DNA of 64,000 nucleotides, taken from contig NZ_SJFN01000010.1 in assembly GCF_004328075.1 (NCBI RefSeq), positions 1-64,000 on the forward strand, written 5' to 3'. The notes beneath the pieces are model-generated. The model had not been told where the DNA came from, searched no databases, and saw nothing but the letters and a program-made list of their open reading frames with translations. Made by a program: the position numbers and the translations under genes. This DNA comes from Siculibacillus lacustris (GTDB lineage: Bacteria; Pseudomonadota; Alphaproteobacteria; Rhizobiales; Ancalomicrobiaceae). Shown one piece after another: positions 30,164 through 63,102 of the stretch; position 1 is the first letter of the stretch; the number at the start of each line of letters is the position of its first letter.

Positions 30164-30966
30164 CGGATTTTCGCCCGTTCGATGAGGGATTGCCCGTCGA
30201 GCGCATGGAGCGCATCGAGAATGTCGACGGCGAAGGATCCCGGCCCCTTGGCCGTGGTCGCCGCCACTTCGCCGGCCACGCCGACCACCACCAGCGCCAC
30301 CGCGGCGGCCAGCACCGCATCGGGCTCGACCGCCCGGAACGCCGCCGCCACCGCCGTCGCGGCGCAGCCCATCGCCGTCACCCGGTCCATCAGCGGATGG
30401 CCGTTGGCGATGCGGATCAGCCGCCGCCCGTCGGTGACGATGTCGACCTCGCCGGTCACCGCCAGGGTCGTCACGTCGTGGACCGCATGGTCGCGCACCG
30501 CCCCGTCCTCGGCGTCGGTACCGGCCAGCGCCCGGAATTCCGCGCGATTGGCATGGACCAGGGCGGGTTCCATCTCGATCAGCCGGCGCGCGAAGGCCAG
30601 CCGCCCGGTGGAGATCTCGACCTTGACCGGATCGAGGATCCACGGCACGCCGGCCTCCTTGGCGACCTCGATCGCCGTCAGCCCGGCGTCGCGCCGCACC
30701 CGGTCGAGCATGCCGAGATTGATCAGCAGCGCGTCGGCGCTGGCCACGAAGTCGGGGATCTCTTCCGGCGACTGGGTCATCGACGGTTCGGCGCCGGCCG
30801 CCAGCAGCATGTTGGCGGTGAAGGTCAGCGCCACCGGCGAGGTCAGCACGTGGACCCGCGGGCGCCGGGCGCGCAGCCGCTCGACGATCGCCACCACCCC
30901 GGCCGCGGTGAGCAGGGGGCGGGCGCCGAGGCCGGCATCGGGCACGGGGGAACCATCGTCGCTCAT
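30160..30966 (-). CDS. thiM: hydroxyethylthiazole kinase
   Basis: 268 residues from ATG 30966. The ThiM signature blocks are present: PRVHVLTSPVALTFTANMLLAAGAEPSM, PWILDPVKVEIS and the catalytic MGCAATAVAAAF. The Cys of the active site is in AMGCAAT. It salvages thiazole by phosphorylation. As first gene behind the TPP riboswitch it marks a salvage-type operon: thiM, thiE and thiD are present, but the de novo genes thiC, thiG, thiO and thiS are not in this cluster. Confidence 0.95.
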   Translation of the reverse strand: MSDDGSPVPDAGLGARPLLTAAGVVAIVERLRARRPRVHVLTSPVALTFTANMLLAAGAEPSMTQSPEEIPDFVASADALLINLGMLDRVRRDAGLTAIEVAKEAGVPWILDPVKVEISTGRLAFARRLIEMEPALVHANRAEFRALAGTDAEDGAVRDHAVHDVTTLAVTGEVDIVTDGRRLIRIANGHPLMDRVTAMGCAATAVAAAFRAVEPDAVLAAAVALVVVGVAGEVAATTAKGPGSFAVDILDALHALDGQSLIERAKIR

Positions 30967-30969
30967 CTC

Positions 30970-31055
30970 AATCCCTCCGCCGGCACGACCCGGATCAGGT
31001 TCGAGGGGTTGGCCGCGCCTCTCAGCCCGGGTCTGCCGGGCACCCCCATGAGATT
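30970..31055 (-). ncRNA. TPP (THI-box) riboswitch upstream of thiM
   Basis: Read on the minus strand, the conserved cores are all in order: GGGGGTGC, then GGGCTGAGAGG, then ACCCCTCGAACCTGATC, then GGGTCGTGCCGGCGGAGGGA. The 3' end of the fold contains the GGAGG that is also the thiM Shine-Dalgarno, and CTCA at the 5' side can pair with TGAG next to the ATG. TPP binding would therefore hide the ribosome-binding site, which implies translational control of the thi operon. Confidence 0.95.
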
Positions 31056-31204
31056 TCGATGAGTTAATCCGCCGGGCGGGGCTTGGCAAGGGCCGGCCGC
31101 CGCGGAGATCTCCCCGCCCGATGCCGGTCTCCTCCGCAACCCTCCCCTCTTGCCCTCGCCCCCCGCATCTGATGGACTGGACACGTCATCGAAAGGCCCT
31201 GCCG

Positions 31205-51204: not shown

Positions 51205-51299
51205 CCGAAGTGGGGACGGCGGTGCGGCGGAGCGGTCACGCCGCGGGTCTTTTTCGTCAGGCCCTTTCCCCGCCGCGACGGCTCACCTATATTGGGAGT

Positions 51300-51636
51300 G
51301 CCGTCGCAAGACGGCTATGGCGATAAACGAGCGGTGTAATACGCCTTTCGGACCCGGGGGCAGTACCCGGCGCCTCCACCCGAGCCCATCGGACGGTCCC
51401 AGGACGGATCGGCGGCGGTGGGTTCCGGCGGGGGCGAACTAGGATCGACGAGGGTCTAAAAACCGATCTTTTGCCCGGCATGATACCGCCGTTATCGGGT
51501 CAAACTATAGTTGCCAACGACAACTATGCTCCGGTTGCAGTGGCCGCGTGAGCGGTTTCTGACTCCGGTTACAAGTCCTGACGTGTAGCAGCGATCAGGC
51601 GGGGTTCGGAGGCACCCGGCAACAGAAGCCTCCACT
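51300..51636 (+). ncRNA. ssrA: two-piece (circularly permuted) tmRNA
   Basis: The acceptor piece comes first: GAGCGGTGTAATACGCC, then a T-arm-like CCGGG...CCCGG, then CGCCTCC-ACC at 51371-51380. That end pairs over 7 bp with GGGGGCG at 51430-51436, the 5' end of the coding piece. The tag frame (51513-51551) encodes ANDNYAPVAVAA-stop, the alphaproteobacterial type. A 6-bp hairpin GGAGGC...GCCTCC closes the 3' side (51608-51633). TATATT at 51288-51293 may be the -10. The full CCA is not encoded (ACCC). Exact ends are estimates. Confidence 0.92.
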
Positions 51637-54076: not shown

Positions 54077-56575
54077 TCAGATCGGGGTGACGAAGGCGTC
54101 GACGACGCGTTTGCGCCCCGCCCGATCGAAGTCGATCGACAGTTTCTCGCCGTCGACCTCGGCGACCGTTCCGTTGCCGAACTTCTGATGGAAGATCCGG
54201 TCGCCGACCACGAACTTGGGCTCGGCGGTGGCGTGGCTCTTGGCGATCAGCGTGCCCTCGATCACCTTGGCGCGGCGATCGTGCAGCGGATTGCCCCAAC
54301 GGTCGCGCGTCGGCGCCCGCTCCAACCGATCGTCGGCAAACCGCGGGCGGGCCGAATCGTCGAAACCGGAGCCGCGGCCGGGGGTGTCGCCGCCGAAGCC
54401 GGAGCCGCCGAGGCGTCCGTCCTTCTGCGATTGGGCGCGCTTCCAACCGGGCGTCGCATAGGTCGACCCGAAGGGTTCGGCCTGATCGAAGCGCGATCGC
54501 CCGTAGCCGCCGTAGCTCGACCCGCTCTGGCGGATCTCGACATGGGGCTCGGGCAGTTCGTCGAGGAAGCGCGAGGGGATCGACGACTGCCAGGTGCCGT
54601 GGATGCGGCGGTTGGTGGCGAACCACAGGGTGACGCGCTTCTTGGCTCGGGTCAGGCCGACATAGGCGAGGCGGCGCTCCTCCTCGAGGCCGGCGCGGCC
54701 GCCTTCGTCGAGCGAGCGCTGGTGGGGGAACAGCCCCTCTTCCCAGCCGGGCAGGAACACGCTGTCGAACTCCAGACCTTTTGCCGCGTGCAGCGTCATC
54801 AGATTGACCGCATCGAGGCTGGCGTCGGCCTCGGTGTCCATCACCAGGGAGACGTGTTCGAGGAACGCCGGCAGGCTGTCGTAGGCCTCCATCGAGCGCA
54901 GCAGTTCCTTGAGGTTCTCCAGCCGCCCCGGGGCATCGGCCGATTTGTCGTTCTGCCACATCTCGGTGTAGCCGGACTCGTCGAGGATGATCCCGGCGAG
55001 TTCGGTGTGCGACATCGCGTCGAGCTGGTCGCGCCAGCGCGCGAAGTTCTGTACCAGGGTCTTGAGCGCGCCGCGGGCCTTGGGCTTCAGTTCCTCGGTC
55101 TCGACCATGCGGCCGGCGGCGGCGAGCATCGGCACGCCCTGGAGGCGCGAGAAGGCGTGGATCTGCTGGAGGGTGGCGTCGCCGAGCCCCCGCTTCGGGG
55201 TGTTGACGATGCGCTCGAAGGCGAGGTCGTCGGCGACCTGGCAGGTCACCCGGAAATAGGCCAGCGCATCGCGGATCTCGGCGCGCTCGTAGAAGCGCGG
55301 GCCGCCGATCACCCGATAGGGCAGACCGAGGGTGACGAAACGGTCTTCGAACTCGCGCATCTGGAACGAGGCGCGCACCAGGATGGCGATCTCGTCGAGG
55401 CGGTGGCCCTGCCGCTGCAGCGCCTCGATCTCGTCGCCGATCGAGCGGGCCTCTTCCTCCGAATCCCAGGCATTGGCCACCACCACCTTGGCGGCGTCGG
55501 GGTCGTCGCGCTCGGTGAACAGCGTCTTGCCCAGCCGCCCCTCGTTGTGGGCGATCAGGTGCGAGGCGGAGGCGAGGATGTGGGTGGTCGAGCGGTAGTT
55601 GCGCTCCAGACGGATCACCGCGGCGCCGGGGAAATCGTGCTCGAAGCGCAGGATGTTGTCGACCTCGGCGCCGCGCCAGCCGTAGATCGACTGGTCGTCG
55701 TCGCCGACGCAGCAGACGTTGCGGGTGCCGACGGCGAGCAGGCGCAGCCACAGATACTGCGCGACGTTGGTGTCCTGATACTCGTCGACCAGGATGTAGC
55801 GGAAGCGGCGCTGCCAGTCGGCGAGCACGTCGGGGCGGTCGCGCCAGATCTTGACGACATGCAGCAGCAGGTCGCCGAAGTCGCAGGCGTTGAGCGTCAC
55901 CAGACGGTTCTGATAGGCGCGGTAGAGATCGCCGCCCTTGCCGCCGCCGAAGGCGCGGGCCTCGAGCGGCGGCACCTGATCGGGGGTCAGGCCCTTGTTC
56001 TTCCAGCCGTCGAGGAAGCTCGCGAACTGGCGAGCGGGCCAGCGCTTCTCGTCGATGCCTTCGGCCTGGATGACCTGTTTGATCAGCCGCAGCTGGTCGT
56101 CCATGTCGAGAATGGTGAAGTCGGAGCGCAGGCCGACCAGTTCGGCGTGGCGGCGCAGGATGCGGGTGCCGATGGCGTGGAAAGTGCCCAGCCACGGCAT
56201 GCCCTCGACCGCCGACCCGACCAGCCGGCCGATCCGCTCCTTCATCTCGCGCGCCGCCTTGTTGGTGAAGGTGACGGCGAGGATCTCGCCCGGCCGGGCG
56301 CGTCCGGTGGCGAGGATATGGGCGATGCGGGTGGTCAGTACCCGGGTCTTGCCGGTACCGGCGCCGGCCAGCACCAGGACCGGCCCTTCGGTGGTGACGA
56401 TCGCCCGCGCCTGTTCCGGATTGAGCCCGGCGAGATAGTCGCGCTCGGCCTCGACCGGCGAGCCGGCCGCGGCGGCGCGCGCCGCGATGCCGCCCGGGCG
56501 GTGCGGGGCGAGCGGGGCGGGGTCGTTCGGCCGGCGCGAGAGTGGGGCGTCGTCCGGATCGAAGGCATCGGTCAT
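54077..56575 (-). CDS. uvrD: ATP-dependent DNA helicase UvrD/PcrA
   Basis: 832 residues. SF1A motifs run in order: Q motif LNPEQARAIV, Walker A AGAGTGKT (70-77), motif II VDEYQDTN, motif III GDDDQSIYGWRGA, motif V LMTLHAAKGLEFDSVF and motif VI RRLAYVGLTRAKKRV. The C-terminus is a Tudor-like RNA-polymerase-binding fold (GDRIFHQKFGNGTVAEVDGEKLSIDF). It unwinds DNA 3' to 5' in excision and mismatch repair and in transcription-coupled repair. Confidence 0.95.
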   Translation of the reverse strand: MTDAFDPDDAPLSRRPNDPAPLAPHRPGGIAARAAAAGSPVEAERDYLAGLNPEQARAIVTTEGPVLVLAGAGTGKTRVLTTRIAHILATGRARPGEILAVTFTNKAAREMKERIGRLVGSAVEGMPWLGTFHAIGTRILRRHAELVGLRSDFTILDMDDQLRLIKQVIQAEGIDEKRWPARQFASFLDGWKNKGLTPDQVPPLEARAFGGGKGGDLYRAYQNRLVTLNACDFGDLLLHVVKIWRDRPDVLADWQRRFRYILVDEYQDTNVAQYLWLRLLAVGTRNVCCVGDDDQSIYGWRGAEVDNILRFEHDFPGAAVIRLERNYRSTTHILASASHLIAHNEGRLGKTLFTERDDPDAAKVVVANAWDSEEEARSIGDEIEALQRQGHRLDEIAILVRASFQMREFEDRFVTLGLPYRVIGGPRFYERAEIRDALAYFRVTCQVADDLAFERIVNTPKRGLGDATLQQIHAFSRLQGVPMLAAAGRMVETEELKPKARGALKTLVQNFARWRDQLDAMSHTELAGIILDESGYTEMWQNDKSADAPGRLENLKELLRSMEAYDSLPAFLEHVSLVMDTEADASLDAVNLMTLHAAKGLEFDSVFLPGWEEGLFPHQRSLDEGGRAGLEEERRLAYVGLTRAKKRVTLWFATNRRIHGTWQSSIPSRFLDELPEPHVEIRQSGSSYGGYGRSRFDQAEPFGSTYATPGWKRAQSQKDGRLGGSGFGGDTPGRGSGFDDSARPRFADDRLERAPTRDRWGNPLHDRRAKVIEGTLIAKSHATAEPKFVVGDRIFHQKFGNGTVAEVDGEKLSIDFDRAGRKRVVDAFVTPI

Positions 56576-56778
56576 CGCGGCGGGGGCTCGGATTGGCAGG
56601 GGATCGACACCGGACGGCCGCCCGGCTGATTCTCCCTTCGTTCACCCCCGACTATATCAGGGATGGCGCCACATTGCGGCAGAGGCGGCGCGCGGGCGAT
56701 CGCGAGGGCCACGGGCCGGTGCGCCCTCCCCTCGCCTGTCGACGGCGGCCGGGGCGGCGCACCGCCCCTCGATTGGAC

Positions 56779-56866
56779 AAAAAAAGACCGCTGGGCGTGC
56801 CAGCGGTCCAAGTCTTAGGGAGGAAACGCCCAAGGAGGGCCACCACCCCGAGGGGTGATGAGACTT
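56779..56866 (-). ncRNA. predicted small RNA, copy 1
   Basis: Minus-strand order: hairpin CAUCACC-CCUCGG-GGUGGUG, hairpin GCCC-UCCUU-GGGC, single-stranded GUUUCCUCCCUAAGACUUG, and terminator GACCGCUGG-loop-CCAGCGGUC followed by seven U. A second copy lies at 61743-61830. Differences fall in loops or keep pairing, while the UUUCCUCCC segment is identical, so the RNA is under selection. The CCUCC motif could bind Shine-Dalgarno sequences like CUCC-type alphaproteobacterial sRNAs. It sits in the 695-base gap before the first chemoreceptor and is transcribed away from it. Confidence 0.72.
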
Positions 56867-56878
56867 TAGTAGTAGTCG

Positions 56879-56895
56879 ATTGTGGCCAAATTGTG
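56879..56895 (-). promoter_or_regulatory. CACAAT direct repeats upstream of sRNA copy 1
   Basis: On the minus strand CACAAT-TTGGC-CACAAT, two identical hexamers 11 bases apart, lie just upstream of a conserved TACTACT. The same arrangement precedes copy 2. An 11-base period is typical of response-regulator sites. Confidence 0.5.
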
Positions 56896-57213
56896 CCGGC
56901 CCGCAAGAACATGCGTTTCAGCGGCGGATTCCGCCGAAACCGCGGGGGGCCGGTCGTTCGGCGCGCGGTCGCCCCCGCCGACGCGCCCGCCTGCCACCGC
57001 GGCGCGACGCCAACCTGCGGCCAAAAATCTACTTCGGCGTGTATGAAAAAGTTCGACCCACTCGGCGGGAAATGCTTGGCCGGTGGCCGGCAATTCGTCC
57101 CCCCGCAGAGCGACGACGCGTCAATCGGTGGCATGAGACTTGATGAAATCGCAATGTATACGAACAATGATCCATCATGAAACGAAAGTCTTGTTCGGCG
57201 GAATCTTAGGTCG

Positions 57214-57228
57214 TTAAGTCTGCGTTAA
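57214..57228 (+). promoter_or_regulatory. CtrA box before the first chemoreceptor gene
   Basis: TTAA-GTCTGCG-TTAA is an exact match to the CtrA consensus TTAA-N7-TTAA. It lies 43 bases before the ATG of the chemoreceptor gene, a position compatible with overlap of the promoter. CtrA controls motility genes in several alphaproteobacteria. Confidence 0.65.
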
Positions 57229-57270
57229 CCATGTTGATGTCTCCTGAAGTCTGAAACTGGAGCCCTCGAC

Positions 57271-59247
57271 ATGGTGTCGTCATTCTCGAATCTCAGCCTG
57301 CGCCTGCAGGTCGGCGCCATCGTCCTGGTCGTGCTGGCCGGTCTCGGGGTCGTCGGGGCGGTCTACCTCGACGGCCGGTCGCGCCAGACGGCGAGCCTCG
57401 GCGAGGCCGCGGTGGCGTCGGCGCTCGATGCCCGGGCGCAGACCCTGGAGATCGACCTCCTCCAGATGCGCCGGGCCGAGAAGAACTTCATCATCCGCTC
57501 CGATGCTGCCTATGCGCGGGAGAATGCGACGATCCGGGCCCGGGCCGAGGAGAATCTGGCCGGTCTGGTGCGCGAACTCGGCAACGGCCGCCATGCGGTG
57601 GTGGCCCCCAAGGTCGAGACCATCGTCAAGGGCGTGAAGGCCTACGGCACCGCCTTCGAGACCCTCGTGGCGGCGCGCGGGCGCCTCGGGCTCGATCCCA
57701 ACGCCGGGCTGGAGGGGAGCCTGCGCAAGGCCGCACACGAGGTCGAGGCGCAACTCGAGAGCTTCGACGACCTCGCCCTGAAGGTGCAGCTGCTGCAGAT
57801 GCGCCGCTCCGAGAAGGACTACATGCTGCGGCACGACCCGAAGATCGTCGAGCTCTTCGCCTCCCAGGCCAAGGCCTTCGAGGCGCGCCTGATGGCGGTC
57901 GATGCGCCCTTGGCGACCCGCACCGCGATCACCCAGGCGGTCGACCTCTACCGCCGCAGCGTCCTCGCCTGGATCGACGGCGATCACGAGATGGCGGTCG
58001 CCGAAAAGGCGATGCAACAGACCCATCGCGCCATGGAACCGGTGATCGACGACGTCGAGAAGACCGTCCAGGCGATCGCCGCCGCGGCCAAGGCCGACGC
58101 CGACGCGACCACCGCGGCGACCGATCGCAGCCTCCTGTGGACCTTCGCGGCGATCGTCGCGGCCCTGGTGGTCGCGTCCGCCGCGATCGGGCGGGCGATC
58201 TCCAAGCCGATCGGCACCATGACCGAGGTCATGACGCGGCTCGCCGACGGCGATCTCGAGGTGGCGGTGGCCGGGCGCGAGAAGACCAACGAGATCGGTC
58301 GCATGGCGCGGGCGGTCGAGATCTTCCGCGACAACGCCCGCGAACAGCGGCGGCTGGAGGCGGCCCAGGCCGGCGAGGCGGCGCGGGTGGCGGCGGAACG
58401 GCGGCGCGCGATGATGGACCTCGCCGACGCCTTCGAACGGCAGGTCGGCGGCGTGGTGTCGATGGTGTCGTCGGCGGCGACCGAACTCGAGACCGCGGCA
58501 CAGAGCCTGTCGGCCTCGGCCGAAGAGGCCTCGACCCAGTCGACGGCGGTGGCGAGCGCGTCGGAAGAGGCGAGCGCCAACGTCCAGAGCGTCGCGGCCT
58601 CGACCGAAGAACTCGCCACCACGGTGCGCGAGGTCGGCCGTCAGGTCGAGCGCTCGGCGTCGATCGCCGGCCGGGCGATGACCGAGGCGACCGAAGCGAC
58701 CACCCGCGTCCACGGCCTGTCCGGCGCGGCCGAACGGATCGGCTCGATCGTCCAGCTGATCGCCGAGATCGCCGGCAAGACCAATCTGCTGGCGCTCAAT
58801 GCGACGATCGAGGCGGCGCGGGCCGGCGAAGCCGGGCGCGGCTTCGCGGTGGTGGCCGCCGAGGTCAAGGGGCTGGCCGATCAGACCGCCAAGGCGACGG
58901 CGCAGATCGGCACCCAGGTCGACGCGATCCAGGCTTCGACCGGCGAAGCGGCGACGGCGATCGGCGGGATCGGACGGACCATCGAGACGATGAACACCAT
59001 CGCCGGCACCATCGCCGCGGCGGTCGAGGAACAGGGCGCGGCGACCCAGGAGATCGCCCGCAATGTAGCCCAGGCGGCGCGCGGCGCCTCGGAAGTCTCT
59101 TCCAACATCGCCGGCGTCAGCGATGCCTCGGCGTCGTCCAGCGCCGGGGCGGCCCAAGTCCTGGCCGCGGCGCAGGATCTGGGGCGCCAGTCCGAAGCGC
59201 TGCGCGGCGCGGTCGGGACCTTCCTCGCCGACGTCCGGGCGGCCTGA
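57271..59247 (+). CDS. methyl-accepting chemotaxis protein with HBM sensor domain (copy 1)
   Basis: 658 residues: membrane helix 1 (about 11-31), periplasmic helical bimodular (HBM) sensor (about 35-285) with the twin blocks [18 protein letters not shown] and [18 protein letters not shown], membrane helix 2 (about 287-310), HAMP (to about 363) and a signalling domain whose tip is [31 protein letters not shown] sensors bind small carboxylates in known cases. No CheB/CheR-docking pentapeptide is present; it ends FLADVRAA. A perfect CtrA box lies upstream. The tandem paralogue follows 498 bases later. Confidence 0.93.
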
Positions 59248-59745
59248 CCGCCGCGCCCGGCGGGTCGCCGCGCGCATCGCCCCCGCGGCCGGGGCGAACC
59301 GAGACGCCGACGGACGATCGCCGGCGGTCGCCGTTCCGCAGCACCGTCGTCGCGTGAGGCGCGACGACTTTCCGCGTCGTCGACCGAGCCCGACCGTCGC
59401 CACCCGCCGCAAACCGTCCCCTTGGACGTTTCGCGCAGCGCGAATTCCCGCGGTCTACGCTCCAGGGCGCCGCCCATTCGGTCGAAGTCTCGATGGAACC
59501 CACGGCCCATACCGACCGTGCCGTCCTTTCCCTCAGCGACATCGCGCGACGCCCGTTCGACATCGCGGAAAGTATTTCGCTTGTCACGGCACGACGACCA
59601 ACGTCAACCTCGTTTAATTTCGAGACATACGGACTATCAGACAGTTTTGCTTACGCAAATCAGGAAGATTTAACGCCCAATTCTGTAGAAATGAACGCTA
59701 CGGTAGGGGGCCTCCAATAAGCGCATTAGATTTTCAAATCTCGGA
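59248..59745. other. 498-base gap between the two chemoreceptor genes
   Basis: The first 330 bases are GC-rich without recognisable genes. From about 59,570 the composition turns AT-rich. A 75-codon frame (59493-59720) ends in TAA 4 bases before the ATT that aligns with the first receptor's start region. Its start lacks a Shine-Dalgarno and the protein is not recognised, so I do not call it a gene, but it could provide translational coupling. No terminator hairpin with a T-tract is evident. Confidence 0.5.
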
Positions 59746-61695
59746 TTGCGGATTCAGGTCGCGACGATCGTCGGCGTGGCGCTGGTCAGTCTAGTGGTGA
59801 TCGGCGCGGTCCATGTCGACGGACGGCGACAGCAGGACCTGATGCTCGCCGAATTGGATGCGGCGGTCGATTTCGCCGACCACATGCAGACCCTGGAGAT
59901 CGACCTGTCGCAGATGCGGCTGGCGGAGAAGACCTTCCTGGCGCAACTGGACGCGAGCCAGGTCCGCCGGCACGTCGAGATCCGCCAGCGGGTGGCCGCC
60001 AGCCTCGCCGGGATGGAAGCCGACGTCGGCAGCGGCCGTCGCCGCGATCTCGCACCGGCGATCGCCACGATCGCCGCCGGGGTGAAGGCCTATTACGCGA
60101 CCTTCGATCAGTTGGTCGCAGCGCGCACCCGGCTCGGCCTCGATCCCGATTCCGGCCTCGAAGGCGAGCTGCGGCGCAACGCCCACGACATCGAAGCGGC
60201 GGCCGCCGGCCTCGACGATCCGCGCGCCGAAGCGCTGCTGCTGCAGATGCGGCGGCAGGAGAAGGATTACATGCTGCGCCACGACGGCAAGTACGTCGAC
60301 GACTTCAAGGCGCGGGCGAAGGCGTTCCGCAGCCTGACGGCGACGCTGGACATGCCGGCGACGGTGCGGGCCGGCATCGAGCGGGCCGCGACCACCTACG
60401 AGGCCGGCTTCCTCGCCTGGGTCGACGGCGACCGGGCGATCGCCGCCGCGGAAAAGTCGATGATGCAGGTGCACGGCGAGTTGCTGCCGGTGATCGACGC
60501 CGCCGAGAAGAGCGTCGCCCGCCAAGCCGAGGTGGCCAAGGCCGAAGCCGCCGCGCGGACGGCCGCGACCGAGCGCCTGATGCTGATCGTCTTTGGCGCG
60601 GTCGCCGTCCTGCTCGCCGGGCTGTCGCTGATGATCGGCCGGGCGATCGCCGGACCGATCGGCGCCATGACCGGGGCGATGGACCGGCTCGCCGGCGGCG
60701 ACCTCGACGTGGTCGTGCCGGGCGGCGACAAGACCAACGAGATCGGCCACATGGCCAAGGCGGTGGCGGTGTTCCGCGACAACGCCCGCGAACGCCGGCG
60801 CCTCGAGGCGGAACGGGCGGGCGAGGTCAGCCGCGCCGCGGCCGAACGGCGTCGCGTCATGATGGAACTCGCCGATACCTTCGAACGCCAGGTCGGCGGG
60901 GTGGTGGCGACGGTCTCGGAGGCCGCGAGCCAGCTCGAAACGGCGGCGCAGACGCTGGCCGGGTCCGCCGATGCGGCCTCGGCCCAATCGATCGCCGTGG
61001 CCGGAGCTTCGGAAGAGGCGACCGCCAACGTCCAGAGCGTCGCGGCCTCGACCGAGGAACTCGCCACCACGGTGCGCGAGGTCGGCCGTCAGGTCGAGAC
61101 GTCGGCGTCGATCGCCGGTCAGGCGATGACCGAAGCCTCGGAGGCGACGACCCGCGTCCACGGCCTGTCGGGTGCCGCCGAACGCATCGGCTCGATCGTC
61201 CAATTGATCGCCGAGATCGCCGGCAAGACCAATCTGCTCGCCCTCAATGCGACGATCGAGGCGGCGCGGGCCGGTGACGCCGGGCGCGGCTTCGCGGTGG
61301 TGGCCGCCGAGGTCAAGGGGCTGGCCGACCAGACCGCCAAGGCGACGGCGCAGATCGGCACCCAGGTCGAGGCGATCCAGACCTCGACCGGCGAGGCGGC
61401 GGCGGCGATCGCCGGGATCGGCCGCACCATCGAGACGATGAACGCCATCGCCGGAACCATCGCCGCGGCGGTGGAGGAACAGAGCGCGGCGACCCGGGAG
61501 ATCGCCACCAATCTCTCCCAGGCGGCGCGCGGCGCCTCGGATGTCTCGGTCAACATCGAGGGGGTCAGCGCGGCGACCGCCGGCTCCAGCGCCGCATCCG
61601 CCCAGGTGCTGTCGTCGGCCCGCGACCTGACGCATCAGGCGGAGACCCTGCGCAGCGCGGTCGGCCGCTTCCTGTCCGACGTGCGGGCGGCCTGA
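59746..61695 (+). CDS. methyl-accepting chemotaxis protein with HBM sensor domain (copy 2)
   Basis: 649 residues counted from TTG 59746, the only standard start codon after the in-frame stop at 59704. Homology to copy 1 continues upstream through [11 protein letters not shown] to an ATT at 59725, so the real start may be ATT. Layout equals copy 1: helix 1, HBM sensor ([16 protein letters not shown] and [17 protein letters not shown]), helix 2 (about 283-303), HAMP and signalling tip [28 protein letters not shown]. The signalling halves are nearly identical and the sensors differ, so ligands probably differ. Confidence 0.9.
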
Positions 61696-61742
61696 AAACC
61701 GGCCGGCGGCGCCGTCCGCCGGCCCCGAACCGGCGAAATTCC

Positions 61743-61830
61743 AAAAAAAGACCGCTGGGTTTGCCAGCGGTCCAAGTCTTAGGGAGGAAACGCCCAAAGA
61801 GGGCCATCACCCCGAAGGGCGATGCGACCA
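61743..61830 (-). ncRNA. predicted small RNA, copy 2
   Basis: Minus-strand order equals copy 1: hairpin CAUCGCC-CUUC-GGGGUGAUG, hairpin GCCC-UCUUU-GGGC, identical single-stranded GUUUCCUCCCUAAGACUUG, and terminator GACCGCUGG-loop-CCAGCGGUC plus seven U. It lies after the second chemoreceptor, antisense to the direction of that gene but outside its frame, in the 348-base gap 61696-62043. Its terminator may also end the receptor transcript in reverse orientation (hairpin with A-tract). Confidence 0.72.
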
Positions 61831-61842
61831 AAGTAGTAAGTG

Positions 61843-61859
61843 ATTGTGTCGATATTGTG
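61843..61859 (-). promoter_or_regulatory. CACAAT direct repeats upstream of sRNA copy 2
   Basis: Minus strand CACAAT-ATCGA-CACAAT, 11-base period, followed by the TACTACT that is also present upstream of copy 1. Repeats and downstream motif are conserved whereas the spacer is not. Confidence 0.5.
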
Positions 61860-62043
61860 CCCGAGATTCGAAATCGTGCCGTTTCGATGCAGATTCATCG
61901 GACGTCTGATGAGCGTGTCGGCCGGCGCCTGCAGCGACCGCAGAGCAGGATCCGCCGACTCCGGCTTGACCCTTCCGACCCCCCGTGATTGATCGCGCGA
62001 GCACGGGCCGGCCTTCGCCGCGCCGACCGTCGAGGGGGGCGGC

Positions 62044-63102
62044 ATGAGCGAATCCCGCGGGCCGGGCCGAGCGGCATTGCAGTGGGCGGGGTTGGTCGGG
62101 TTGTCGGCGCTGGTCGCGACGCTGCTCGAGGAAGCCCACCTGCCGGCCGCCTTCATGCTCGGGCCGCTGATCTCCGGGCTCGTCGTACGTCTCTCGGGCT
62201 TCGAGCTGCGCGTGCCGCGAATCGCCTATCTGATGGCGCAATGCGTCATCGGCGGCATGATCGGCGCCGTCCTGACCCCGGCGATCATCCACACCTTCAC
62301 CTCGGAATGGCCGCTGCTGCTCGCCACGGTCGGCGCCGTGGTGGCGGTGTCGAGCCTGTCGGGCTGGGGCCTGTCGCGCGGCGGCATCGTGCCCGGCACC
62401 ACCGGCGTGTGGGGGTCGTCGCCCGGCGCGGCCTCGGCGATGGTGATCCTGGCGGAGGCCAACGGCGCCGACGCCCGCCTCGTCGCCTTCATGCAGTATC
62501 TGCGGGTGCTGTTCGTCGCCTCGGCGGCCTCGGTGGTGGCGGCGATCTGGATCGGCGACATGGCGCGCACCCCCTTCGTGCTGTTCCCCCTGCCCCATTG
62601 GCCGCTGCTGGCGACCACCGTCGCGGTGGTCGGCGGCTGCGGCGCGCTCGGCATCCTGTCGCGCGTTCCCTCGGGGGCGATGCTGGCGCCGATGTTCGGC
62701 ACGGCGATCCTCCACGGCACCGGGATGGCCAATTTCGAACTGCCGCCGAGCCTGCTGATTCTCGCCTATGCGATGCTCGGCTGGACCATCGGCCTCGGCT
62801 TCACCCGCGCCGCCCTCGGCCATGCCTGGCACGCCCTGCCGTGGATCGTCGCCTCGATCGTCGTGCTGATGGTGTTCTGCGGCGGGCTGTCGGTGGTTCT
62901 GGTGCACTTCCTCGGCATCGACCCGCTCACCGCCTATCTCGCCACCAGCCCCGGCGGGCTCGACACGGTGGCGATCATCGCCGCATCGACCCCGGTCGAC
63001 GTCGGCTTCGTGATGGCCATGCAGGCGGTGCGCTTCTTCGTGCTGATCTTGATCGGCCCGAGCCTGTCGCGCTGGGTGGCGGCCCACATCGGCCGCGCCT
63101 GA
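62044..63102 (+). CDS. AbrB-family membrane protein (ammonia monooxygenase regulator-like)
   Basis: 352 residues, about ten membrane helices arranged as two repeats, the Gneg_AbrB_dup (PF05145) design: LPAAFMLGPLISGLVVRLSGFELRVPRIAYLMAQCVIGGMIG and the second-half equivalent GAMLAPMFGTAILHGTG. GVWGSSPGAASAMVILAEANGAD and ATSPGGLDTVAIIAAS are the paired conserved loops. Despite the name, it has no DNA-binding domain and looks like a transporter. Substrate unknown. It is not related to the AbrB transition-state regulator. Confidence 0.88.
   Translation: MSESRGPGRAALQWAGLVGLSALVATLLEEAHLPAAFMLGPLISGLVVRLSGFELRVPRIAYLMAQCVIGGMIGAVLTPAIIHTFTSEWPLLLATVGAVVAVSSLSGWGLSRGGIVPGTTGVWGSSPGAASAMVILAEANGADARLVAFMQYLRVLFVASAASVVAAIWIGDMARTPFVLFPLPHWPLLATTVAVVGGCGALGILSRVPSGAMLAPMFGTAILHGTGMANFELPPSLLILAYAMLGWTIGLGFTRAALGHAWHALPWIVASIVVLMVFCGGLSVVLVHFLGIDPLTAYLATSPGGLDTVAIIAASTPVDVGFVMAMQAVRFFVLILIGPSLSRWVAAHIGRA

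Follow-up and report, generated by a model that had tools for sequence, protein, structure and literature searches.

Why do two copies of one small RNA (sRNA) gene bracket two tandem chemoreceptor genes? The question is raised by a locus in a stretch of 64,000 nucleotides of Siculibacillus lacustris DNA (contig NZ_SJFN01000010.1, positions 1 to 64,000; hereafter the window), where the gene order is sRNA–MCP–MCP–sRNA (MCP, methyl-accepting chemotaxis protein) and where both sRNAs, called here W1 and W2, lie on the minus strand, antisense in direction to the receptors. We propose that W1 and W2 are, very probably, two trans-acting alpha-r8 sRNAs that regulate carbon functions, arose by local duplication and have changed promoters, and that the receptors are mere neighbours. 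This proposal is based on the family match, on the six copies in the genome and the spread of the family over the order, on a seed and layout as in the SisA-D RNAs of Caulobacter, on the 120-bp block shared by the two copies, and on their promoter difference.

W1 and W2 belong to the alpha-r8/MmgR family

The features of the two RNAs are the following (positions in the window).
56779..56866, minus strand: sRNA W1, alpha-r8/MmgR (RF00519 match at 56771-56847, cmscan 65.9 bits; model R1, 74.8 bits)
61743..61830, minus strand: sRNA W2, alpha-r8/MmgR (RF00519 match at 61735-61811, cmscan 61.3 bits; model R1, 72 bits)
56817..56826, minus strand: seed UUUCCUCCCU of W1, an anti-Shine-Dalgarno 10-mer (complement AGGGAGGAAA located in a genome search)
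61781..61790, minus strand: seed UUUCCUCCCU of W2 (same genome search for AGGGAGGAAA)
56779..56809, minus strand: W1 intrinsic terminator, GACCGCUGG...CCAGCGGUC with a stretch of seven U (sequence and fold)
61743..61773, minus strand: W2 intrinsic terminator, 47 bp from the end of the stop codon of the convergent gene MCP2 (sequence and fold)

When the window was scanned with cmscan against Rfam 15, both RNAs scored above the curated gathering score of RF00519 (41 bits). This family (suhB/mmgR, 'Makes More Granules Regulator RNA', alpha-r8) includes MmgR of Sinorhizobium and SisA-D of Caulobacter; it was the only family above its cut-off at the two places, and no further sRNA family passed its threshold anywhere in the window. 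By sequence and predicted structure, W1 and W2 are thus members of RF00519. The R1 scores come from a covariance model built from 39 aligned alpha-r8 copies (alignment A1, which excluded L061, L069, L071, L073 and L076-L079); W1 and W2 are both among the sequences used to build it.

The predicted product of each gene is an RNA of about 90 nt that stops at the intrinsic terminator, the 5' ends listed being predicted rather than mapped positions. With RNAfold, W1 (-45.1 kcal/mol) and W2 (-41.6 kcal/mol) fold into the same set of three hairpins, and both end with a Rho-independent terminator composed of a ten-pair stem and a U run. Downstream of a weak hairpin, the same unpaired UUUCCUCCCU is found in W1 and W2; this segment is the published anti-Shine-Dalgarno core 10-mer of the alpha-r8 family (PMC12559287).

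A blastn comparison of the two surroundings (56601-57271 with 61561-62044) returned one ungapped block with 104 identities in 120 positions (E = 5e-39), which corresponds to the transcript plus about 30 bp of promoter; outside it similarity was at chance level (next best match 19/22, E 0.039). Nine of the 16 differences are in the first 33 bp of the block, at or upstream of the probable start, and one is just behind; the others are in the 5' hairpin (three) and in the two loops (three), while GUUUCCUCCCUAAGACUU and both terminator arms are free of differences. Two of the 5'-hairpin differences retain pairing, each by a one-sided G-U/A-U swap, and for this reason the evidence for covariation is real but thin. 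The first-pass annotation of this DNA had described two minus-strand copies of one RNA, with hairpins preserved while loops change (UCCUU/UCUUU; CACGC/CAAAC), an identical unpaired segment and identical terminator stems, and had taken them for an sRNA with a conserved structure and a segment able to pair with Shine-Dalgarno sequences. All of this agrees with our results, including positions, strand and both loop changes; its statement that stem changes keep pairing in the 5' hairpin holds for two sites, and covariation there is weaker than implied. It had proposed a covariance search of Rfam and of the genomes of the order, and that search leads to a family already known and widespread; what the annotation had missed is that the RNA is a described one with six copies in this genome.

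Alpha-r8 copies in the genome and in the order

Six RF00519 matches, five of them above cut-off, were found in the genome of S. lacustris (5.02 Mb, 99 contigs), and R1 found the same six plus one non-significant match (E 0.52). The weakest copy, L010 (G000:C11:100223-100297; 38.7 bits, under cut-off), adjoins an aldehyde dehydrogenase gene; it keeps UUUCCUCCC, but its 10-mer ends in A and it is devoid of the GCCC/GGGC hairpin. The 14 relatives of the same family all carry one to six matches at E <= 0.001 (44 matches, 41 of which were fetched; those left out, two in G011 and one in G006, score about 30 bits). At the level of the order, 269 of 297 genomes have at least one match, with a maximum of ten; the 38 matches from other families of the order gave 24 fetched copies above cut-off (17 genomes), the 14 weaker ones being left out. 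Tandem copies about 200-310 bp apart were seen at L040, L138, L141, L151 and L152 (G004, G015, G039, G037 and G032). An exact 32-nt W-type pattern had no match in the genome collection, from which the genome itself and very near ones were possibly excluded.

The site beside the FGase gene is reported as the ancestral place of alpha-r8 (PMC12559287). An FGase gene adjoins 14 of the 24 copies from other families, mostly with SuhB on the opposite side; this site is likely the origin of the Rfam name suhB. In S. lacustris the C13 copy adjoins FGase. There is no FGase gene beside W1 and W2, whose neighbours are UvrD, the MCP genes and an AbrB-like gene, and many copies in relatives likewise have no FGase neighbour. 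Neighbouring genes were called with a program of our own, based on G+C content by position, and details of these calls may be in error; at L146, L150 and L153 few or no genes were called on at least one side.

W1 and W2 differ from most copies in their promoters

In gel shifts, PhaR/AniA of S. meliloti bound at the mmgR promoter, and the core of its motif is YGCRNYGCR (PMC12542648). We found this core upstream of 51 of 67 alpha-r8 copies (in 500 shuffles, 9.4 on average and 18 at most) and the stricter TGCN3GCA upstream of 37 (shuffled mean 1.0, maximum 6). The promoter regions tested were those of loci L007-L010, L040-L075 and L135-L154; the four weak copies L076-L079 were left out of these counts, as they were of the sRNA tree discussed below. 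A PhaR N-terminal domain is encoded in 15 of 15 genomes of the family. These data suggest that sensing of polyhydroxybutyrate (PHB) via PhaR is a common input of alpha-r8 in the order.

Neither form of the PhaR-type box was found at W1 or W2. Its loss is not unique to them: the S. lacustris copies C35 and C11 are also without it, and 14 of the 16 misses are copies other than W1 and W2. Both share another element:
56878..56895, minus strand: CACAAT-N5-CACAATC upstream of W1, an 11-bp direct repeat (genome-wide pattern search)
61842..61859, minus strand: CACAAT-N5-CACAATC upstream of W2 (genome-wide pattern search)

These are the only two matches of the pattern in the 5.0 Mb genome, and the repeat stands directly upstream of TACTACT. 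Direct repeats of 11 bp are of the kind read by OmpR-type response regulators. A sigma-54 reading of the upstream element was rejected by eye, the GG/GC spacing being wrong for the consensus, and no regulator of the CACAAT repeat was found. The repeat may be functional, but its presence in two closely related copies is not by itself proof of selection. A sub-group of copies (L067, L071 and L072, from G003 and G013) shares much of the CTTACTAC stretch and of the 5' end of W2, and carries a palindromic TGCATCGCA box at the place of the CACAAT repeat. The core promoter may thus predate the W1/W2 pair, the upstream element having been exchanged.

Putative targets fit a role in carbon metabolism

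In Caulobacter, SisA-D pair through the same 10-mer, with Hfq, to mRNA start regions and repress many genes, including those of TonB-dependent receptors, and they are removed by the CrfA sponge on carbon starvation; in S. meliloti, MmgR without the 10-mer causes over-accumulation of PHB (PMC12559287). In S. lacustris, exact AGGGAGGAAA occurs at eight sites: five are antisense to alpha-r8 copies, that is, in the sRNA genes, two are the Shine-Dalgarno sites of genes for an aldehyde dehydrogenase and a DUF1269 protein, and one is antisense to another gene, presumably pnp. No candidate for a CrfA-like sponge was seen among these eight sites, the search being restricted to exact seed complements.

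GGGAGGAA followed by a start codon was found at 27 genome sites, compared with eight for the reversed control pattern, an excess that would be expected anyway from strong Shine-Dalgarno sites. A frame of at least 60 aa follows 22 of the 27 sites, and 20 of these were scanned by Pfam (L253 and L256 were left out). Seven of the 20, a proportion given here with no enrichment control, encode transporters or enzymes of carbon compounds: a TRAP transporter, a sugar-binding protein, an FGGY kinase, an aldehyde dehydrogenase, a short-chain fatty acid transporter, an enolase-superfamily enzyme and a nucleotidyl transferase, which we take to be GlgC. The other frames encode a CZB-domain chemoreceptor, a GntR regulator, HisG, a phage terminase, a PglZ protein and further proteins. 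The predicted functions fit the known carbon role. By analogy with the studied relatives, the unpaired UUUCCUCCCU of W1 and W2 would pair, with Hfq, to Shine-Dalgarno regions, including those of mRNAs for carbon uptake and use, and repress them in trans. Because W1 and W2 have no PhaR-type box and share a private double-CACAAT element, they would probably bring a different signal to the same target set.

The receptors and the origin of the pair

The genes between and around the two sRNAs are:
57271..59247, plus strand: MCP1, HBM-fold ligand domain, HAMP and MCPsignal, 658 aa (Pfam; fold match to McpS)
59746..61695, plus strand: MCP2, paralogue of MCP1, 649 aa from a TTG whose use as start is uncertain (Pfam; comparison with MCP1)
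54077..56575, minus strand: UvrD/PcrA helicase gene, left flank, conserved and used to locate the orthologous site (Pfam; relatives)
62044..63102, plus strand: AbrB-family (PF05145) membrane protein gene, right flank (Pfam; relatives)

MCP1 and MCP2 are 65% identical (425/649) and both have HAMP and MCPsignal domains, as expected from the tandem chemoreceptor genes previously annotated here. That annotation had also called them HBM receptors; Pfam reported no HBM domain for either, and the label is supported by the fold. AlphaFold2, run on an alignment of six sequences (A2), predicted an all-helical MCP1 ligand domain (mean predicted local distance difference test score 84.2, predicted TM-score 0.62), for which the best four Foldseek matches were McpS chains (2yfb/2yfa; E 1.0e-5 to 2.5e-5, probability 1.00, TM-score by target 0.71-0.72), these PDB chains containing succinate or malate. 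The next match was the TorS sensor domain (E 0.014). On this model, the receptors between the two sRNAs adopt the McpS (HBM) fold.

Two observations concern the starts of these genes. Between the in-frame stop TAG (59704-59706) and the TTG at 59746 there is no ATG, GTG or TTG for MCP2, and the codon near the position matching the MCP1 start is ATT (59725-59727). A TTAA-N7-TTAA sequence, a CtrA-like box, lies upstream of MCP1 (57214-57228), and none was seen by eye upstream of MCP2.

The first-pass annotation had suggested that receptor and sRNA were duplicated together. This proposal is rejected: the best blast match between the MCP1-MCP2 spacer and W1 or W2 was 10 nt long (E 0.69), the highest R1 score in the spacer (59248-59745), filters being off, was 5.1 bits, hence no sRNA remnant, and the sequence common to the two ends is limited to 120 bp. 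The gene order, with both sRNAs on the minus strand, and three relatives that carry a receptor of this type but no sRNA at the corresponding site also speak against it. One weak match between the spacer and the region upstream of MCP1 (30 bp, 80%, E 0.016) is too little to indicate a larger duplicated block. The cytoplasmic parts of MCP1 and MCP2 are nearest each other (80%, compared with at most 71% to others). A supported sister relation of the two was not obtained in the receptor tree, the forks of which stayed open, and the MCP2 ligand domain is equally near to G012 (50%) and to MCP1 (48%). The best reading of the pair is a local duplication in which an sRNA and its promoter, about 120 bp in all, would have been copied around a pre-existing receptor site, the receptor being doubled in the genome as well.

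Are the sRNAs tied to the chemoreceptors?

Several points weigh against the view that W1 and W2 are a duplicated pair of carbon-regulating sRNAs with receptors as mere neighbours. Three of the six S. lacustris copies, or two of the five separate loci, are near chemoreceptor genes; the chance that two of five loci lie within 1.5 kb of an MCP gene is 0.019, a rough, post-hoc figure for about 46 MCP genes (48 matches, of which two are halves), and the lower figure of 0.0017 for three of six copies would require W1 and W2 to be independent of each other, and they are not. The neighbourhood is thus not plainly random. The AbrB-like gene (start region at 62044) has the tied strongest predicted seed pairing of 41 window genes (-24.1 kcal/mol), in an imperfect, G+C-rich duplex to which we give little weight. 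The CZB-domain chemoreceptor mentioned above, which has no HAMP match (C38:34107; L264:1501-2881, G000:C38:34094), has a 9-nt seed complement as Shine-Dalgarno site. In the sRNA tree, made from short sequences, W1 and W2 are sisters with a support of 0.59. The CACAAT element could be functionless, merely inherited with the duplication. Lastly, Hfq binding and targets are transferred to W1 and W2 from their relatives, and their transcription is read from the DNA.

One alternative is a dedicated chemotaxis module, in which each receptor came with its own sRNA that controls the receptor, or chemotaxis, post-transcriptionally. Beyond the contiguity of both sRNAs with receptor genes, this idea is favoured by the C20 copy, which adjoins a PAS-protein/MCP-PilZ operon at 870 bp from the MCP gene, an arrangement shared by G002, G003 and G012, by the post-hoc chance of 0.019 given above, and by the seed match of the CZB chemoreceptor. 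However, the start regions of MCP1 and MCP2 contain no run complementary to the seed, and their predicted pairing (-17.7 and -15.1 kcal/mol, in 78-nt regions) is not much stronger than the median of 41 window genes (-14.6 kcal/mol in 58-nt regions, with at least eight reaching -18.1 or better); the regions used for the MCP genes and the flanks were 20 nt longer, a bias in their favour.

Comparison with other genomes is also against a dedicated module. The UvrD...MCP...AbrB stretch is present in G003, G008 and G009, with other genes interspersed and one receptor of MCP1/MCP2 type each, and no alpha-r8 copy was found in it with filters off. The PAS-MCP operon is present in eight genomes of the family (at least 67% identity); one is cut by a contig end, and of the seven that can be judged four have the sRNA beside the operon and three (G004, G008, G009) do not. 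Outside W1 and W2, this locus type is the only one in which a copy is flanked by an MCP gene (4 of 45 copies, 41 from relatives and four from S. lacustris), and none of the 24 copies from other families has an MCP gene within three genes (three of these stretches are sparsely called). A general linkage of alpha-r8 to receptors of MCP1/MCP2 type was rejected, as R1 had no match at E <= 0.01 in 80 loci carrying related receptors (those retained from 207 relatives found), the best one, in L187, having E 0.018 and 20.6 bits at 3.3 kb from the receptor. Among the literature matches listed, titles and abstract starts gave no link of alpha-r8 sRNAs to chemoreceptors. We conclude that alpha-r8 copies lie beside receptors in some genomes and not in others and are not bound to them; the receptors are neighbours, not established partners, and a dedicated module, which the first-pass annotation had hinted at, is very unlikely.

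Other explanations

W1 and W2 might also be passive by-products, small repeats that spread locally and were kept as harmless strong terminators, functionless at this site. In favour of this, the copied block is 120 bp only, and presence or absence differs among related genomes at one same intergenic place. Against it, the seed and the terminator arms are intact while 16 other positions of the block have changed, the family is found across the order, and its function is proven in relatives (PMC12559287); we hold this explanation to be very unlikely as well. That W1 and W2 are part of a short coding frame, or of the 3' end of a receptor mRNA, is extremely unlikely: long frames do cross W1 and W2, a common feature of G+C-rich DNA, but both copies are antisense to the receptors and the 39 aligned copies, judged by reading the alignment rather than by a formal coding test, have insertions and deletions of varied length and keep the 10-mer and the terminator stem.

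The preferred reading, a duplicated alpha-r8 pair with changed promoters, can be extended. W1 and W2 might form a rewired branch of alpha-r8 that has escaped repression by PHB-sensing PhaR and answers to a different regulator, one recognizing the 11-bp CACAAT repeat, so that carbon uptake is switched in step with the adjacent receptors, both being under motility or cell-cycle control (compare the CtrA-like box at MCP1). We regard this extension as speculative and unlikely; if it were true, the cell would change its diet as it changes its swimming direction.

The RNA at this locus is not a new one, nor does the locus provide evidence of riboregulation specific to the receptors; its notable part is the changed promoter. 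The idea of private chemoreceptor sRNAs is thereby narrowed to the question of why the PhaR box has been lost from some copies of an sRNA that is widespread and concerned with carbon storage; most copies in the order are apparently wired to PHB-sensing PhaR, and the exceptions can be listed. If the CACAAT element works, W1 and W2 would clearly exemplify sibling sRNAs whose inputs have diverged and whose seed has stayed the same, an issue left open by the work on Caulobacter.

Other features of the window

cmscan also identified a permuted alphaproteobacterial transfer-messenger RNA (tmRNA) gene at 51261-51636 (291.9 bits; two tmRNA models match at one place) and a thiamine pyrophosphate (TPP) riboswitch at 30955-31057 on the minus strand (67.7 bits).

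Comparison with known systems

The predicted ligand domain of MCP1 shares the fold of the McpS-type HBM chemoreceptors, although its identity to them is only 14-15%. As for the sRNAs, MmgR of S. meliloti and W1/W2 match the same covariance model above cut-off and have the same 10-mer and the same terminator layout. W1 and W2 differ in being two of six copies, MmgR being the only one in its genome (PMC12559287); in having no PhaR-type box, whereas PhaR/AniA binds the mmgR promoter (PMC12542648); and in their location away from the FGase/suhB site. SisA-D of Caulobacter crescentus are likewise dispersed alpha-r8 copies; their promoters are unrelated, and one of the copies adjoins the FGase gene (PMC12559287), as does C13 among the six of S. 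lacustris. Unlike SisA-D, W1 and W2 form a local pair around receptors and have a promoter element in common.

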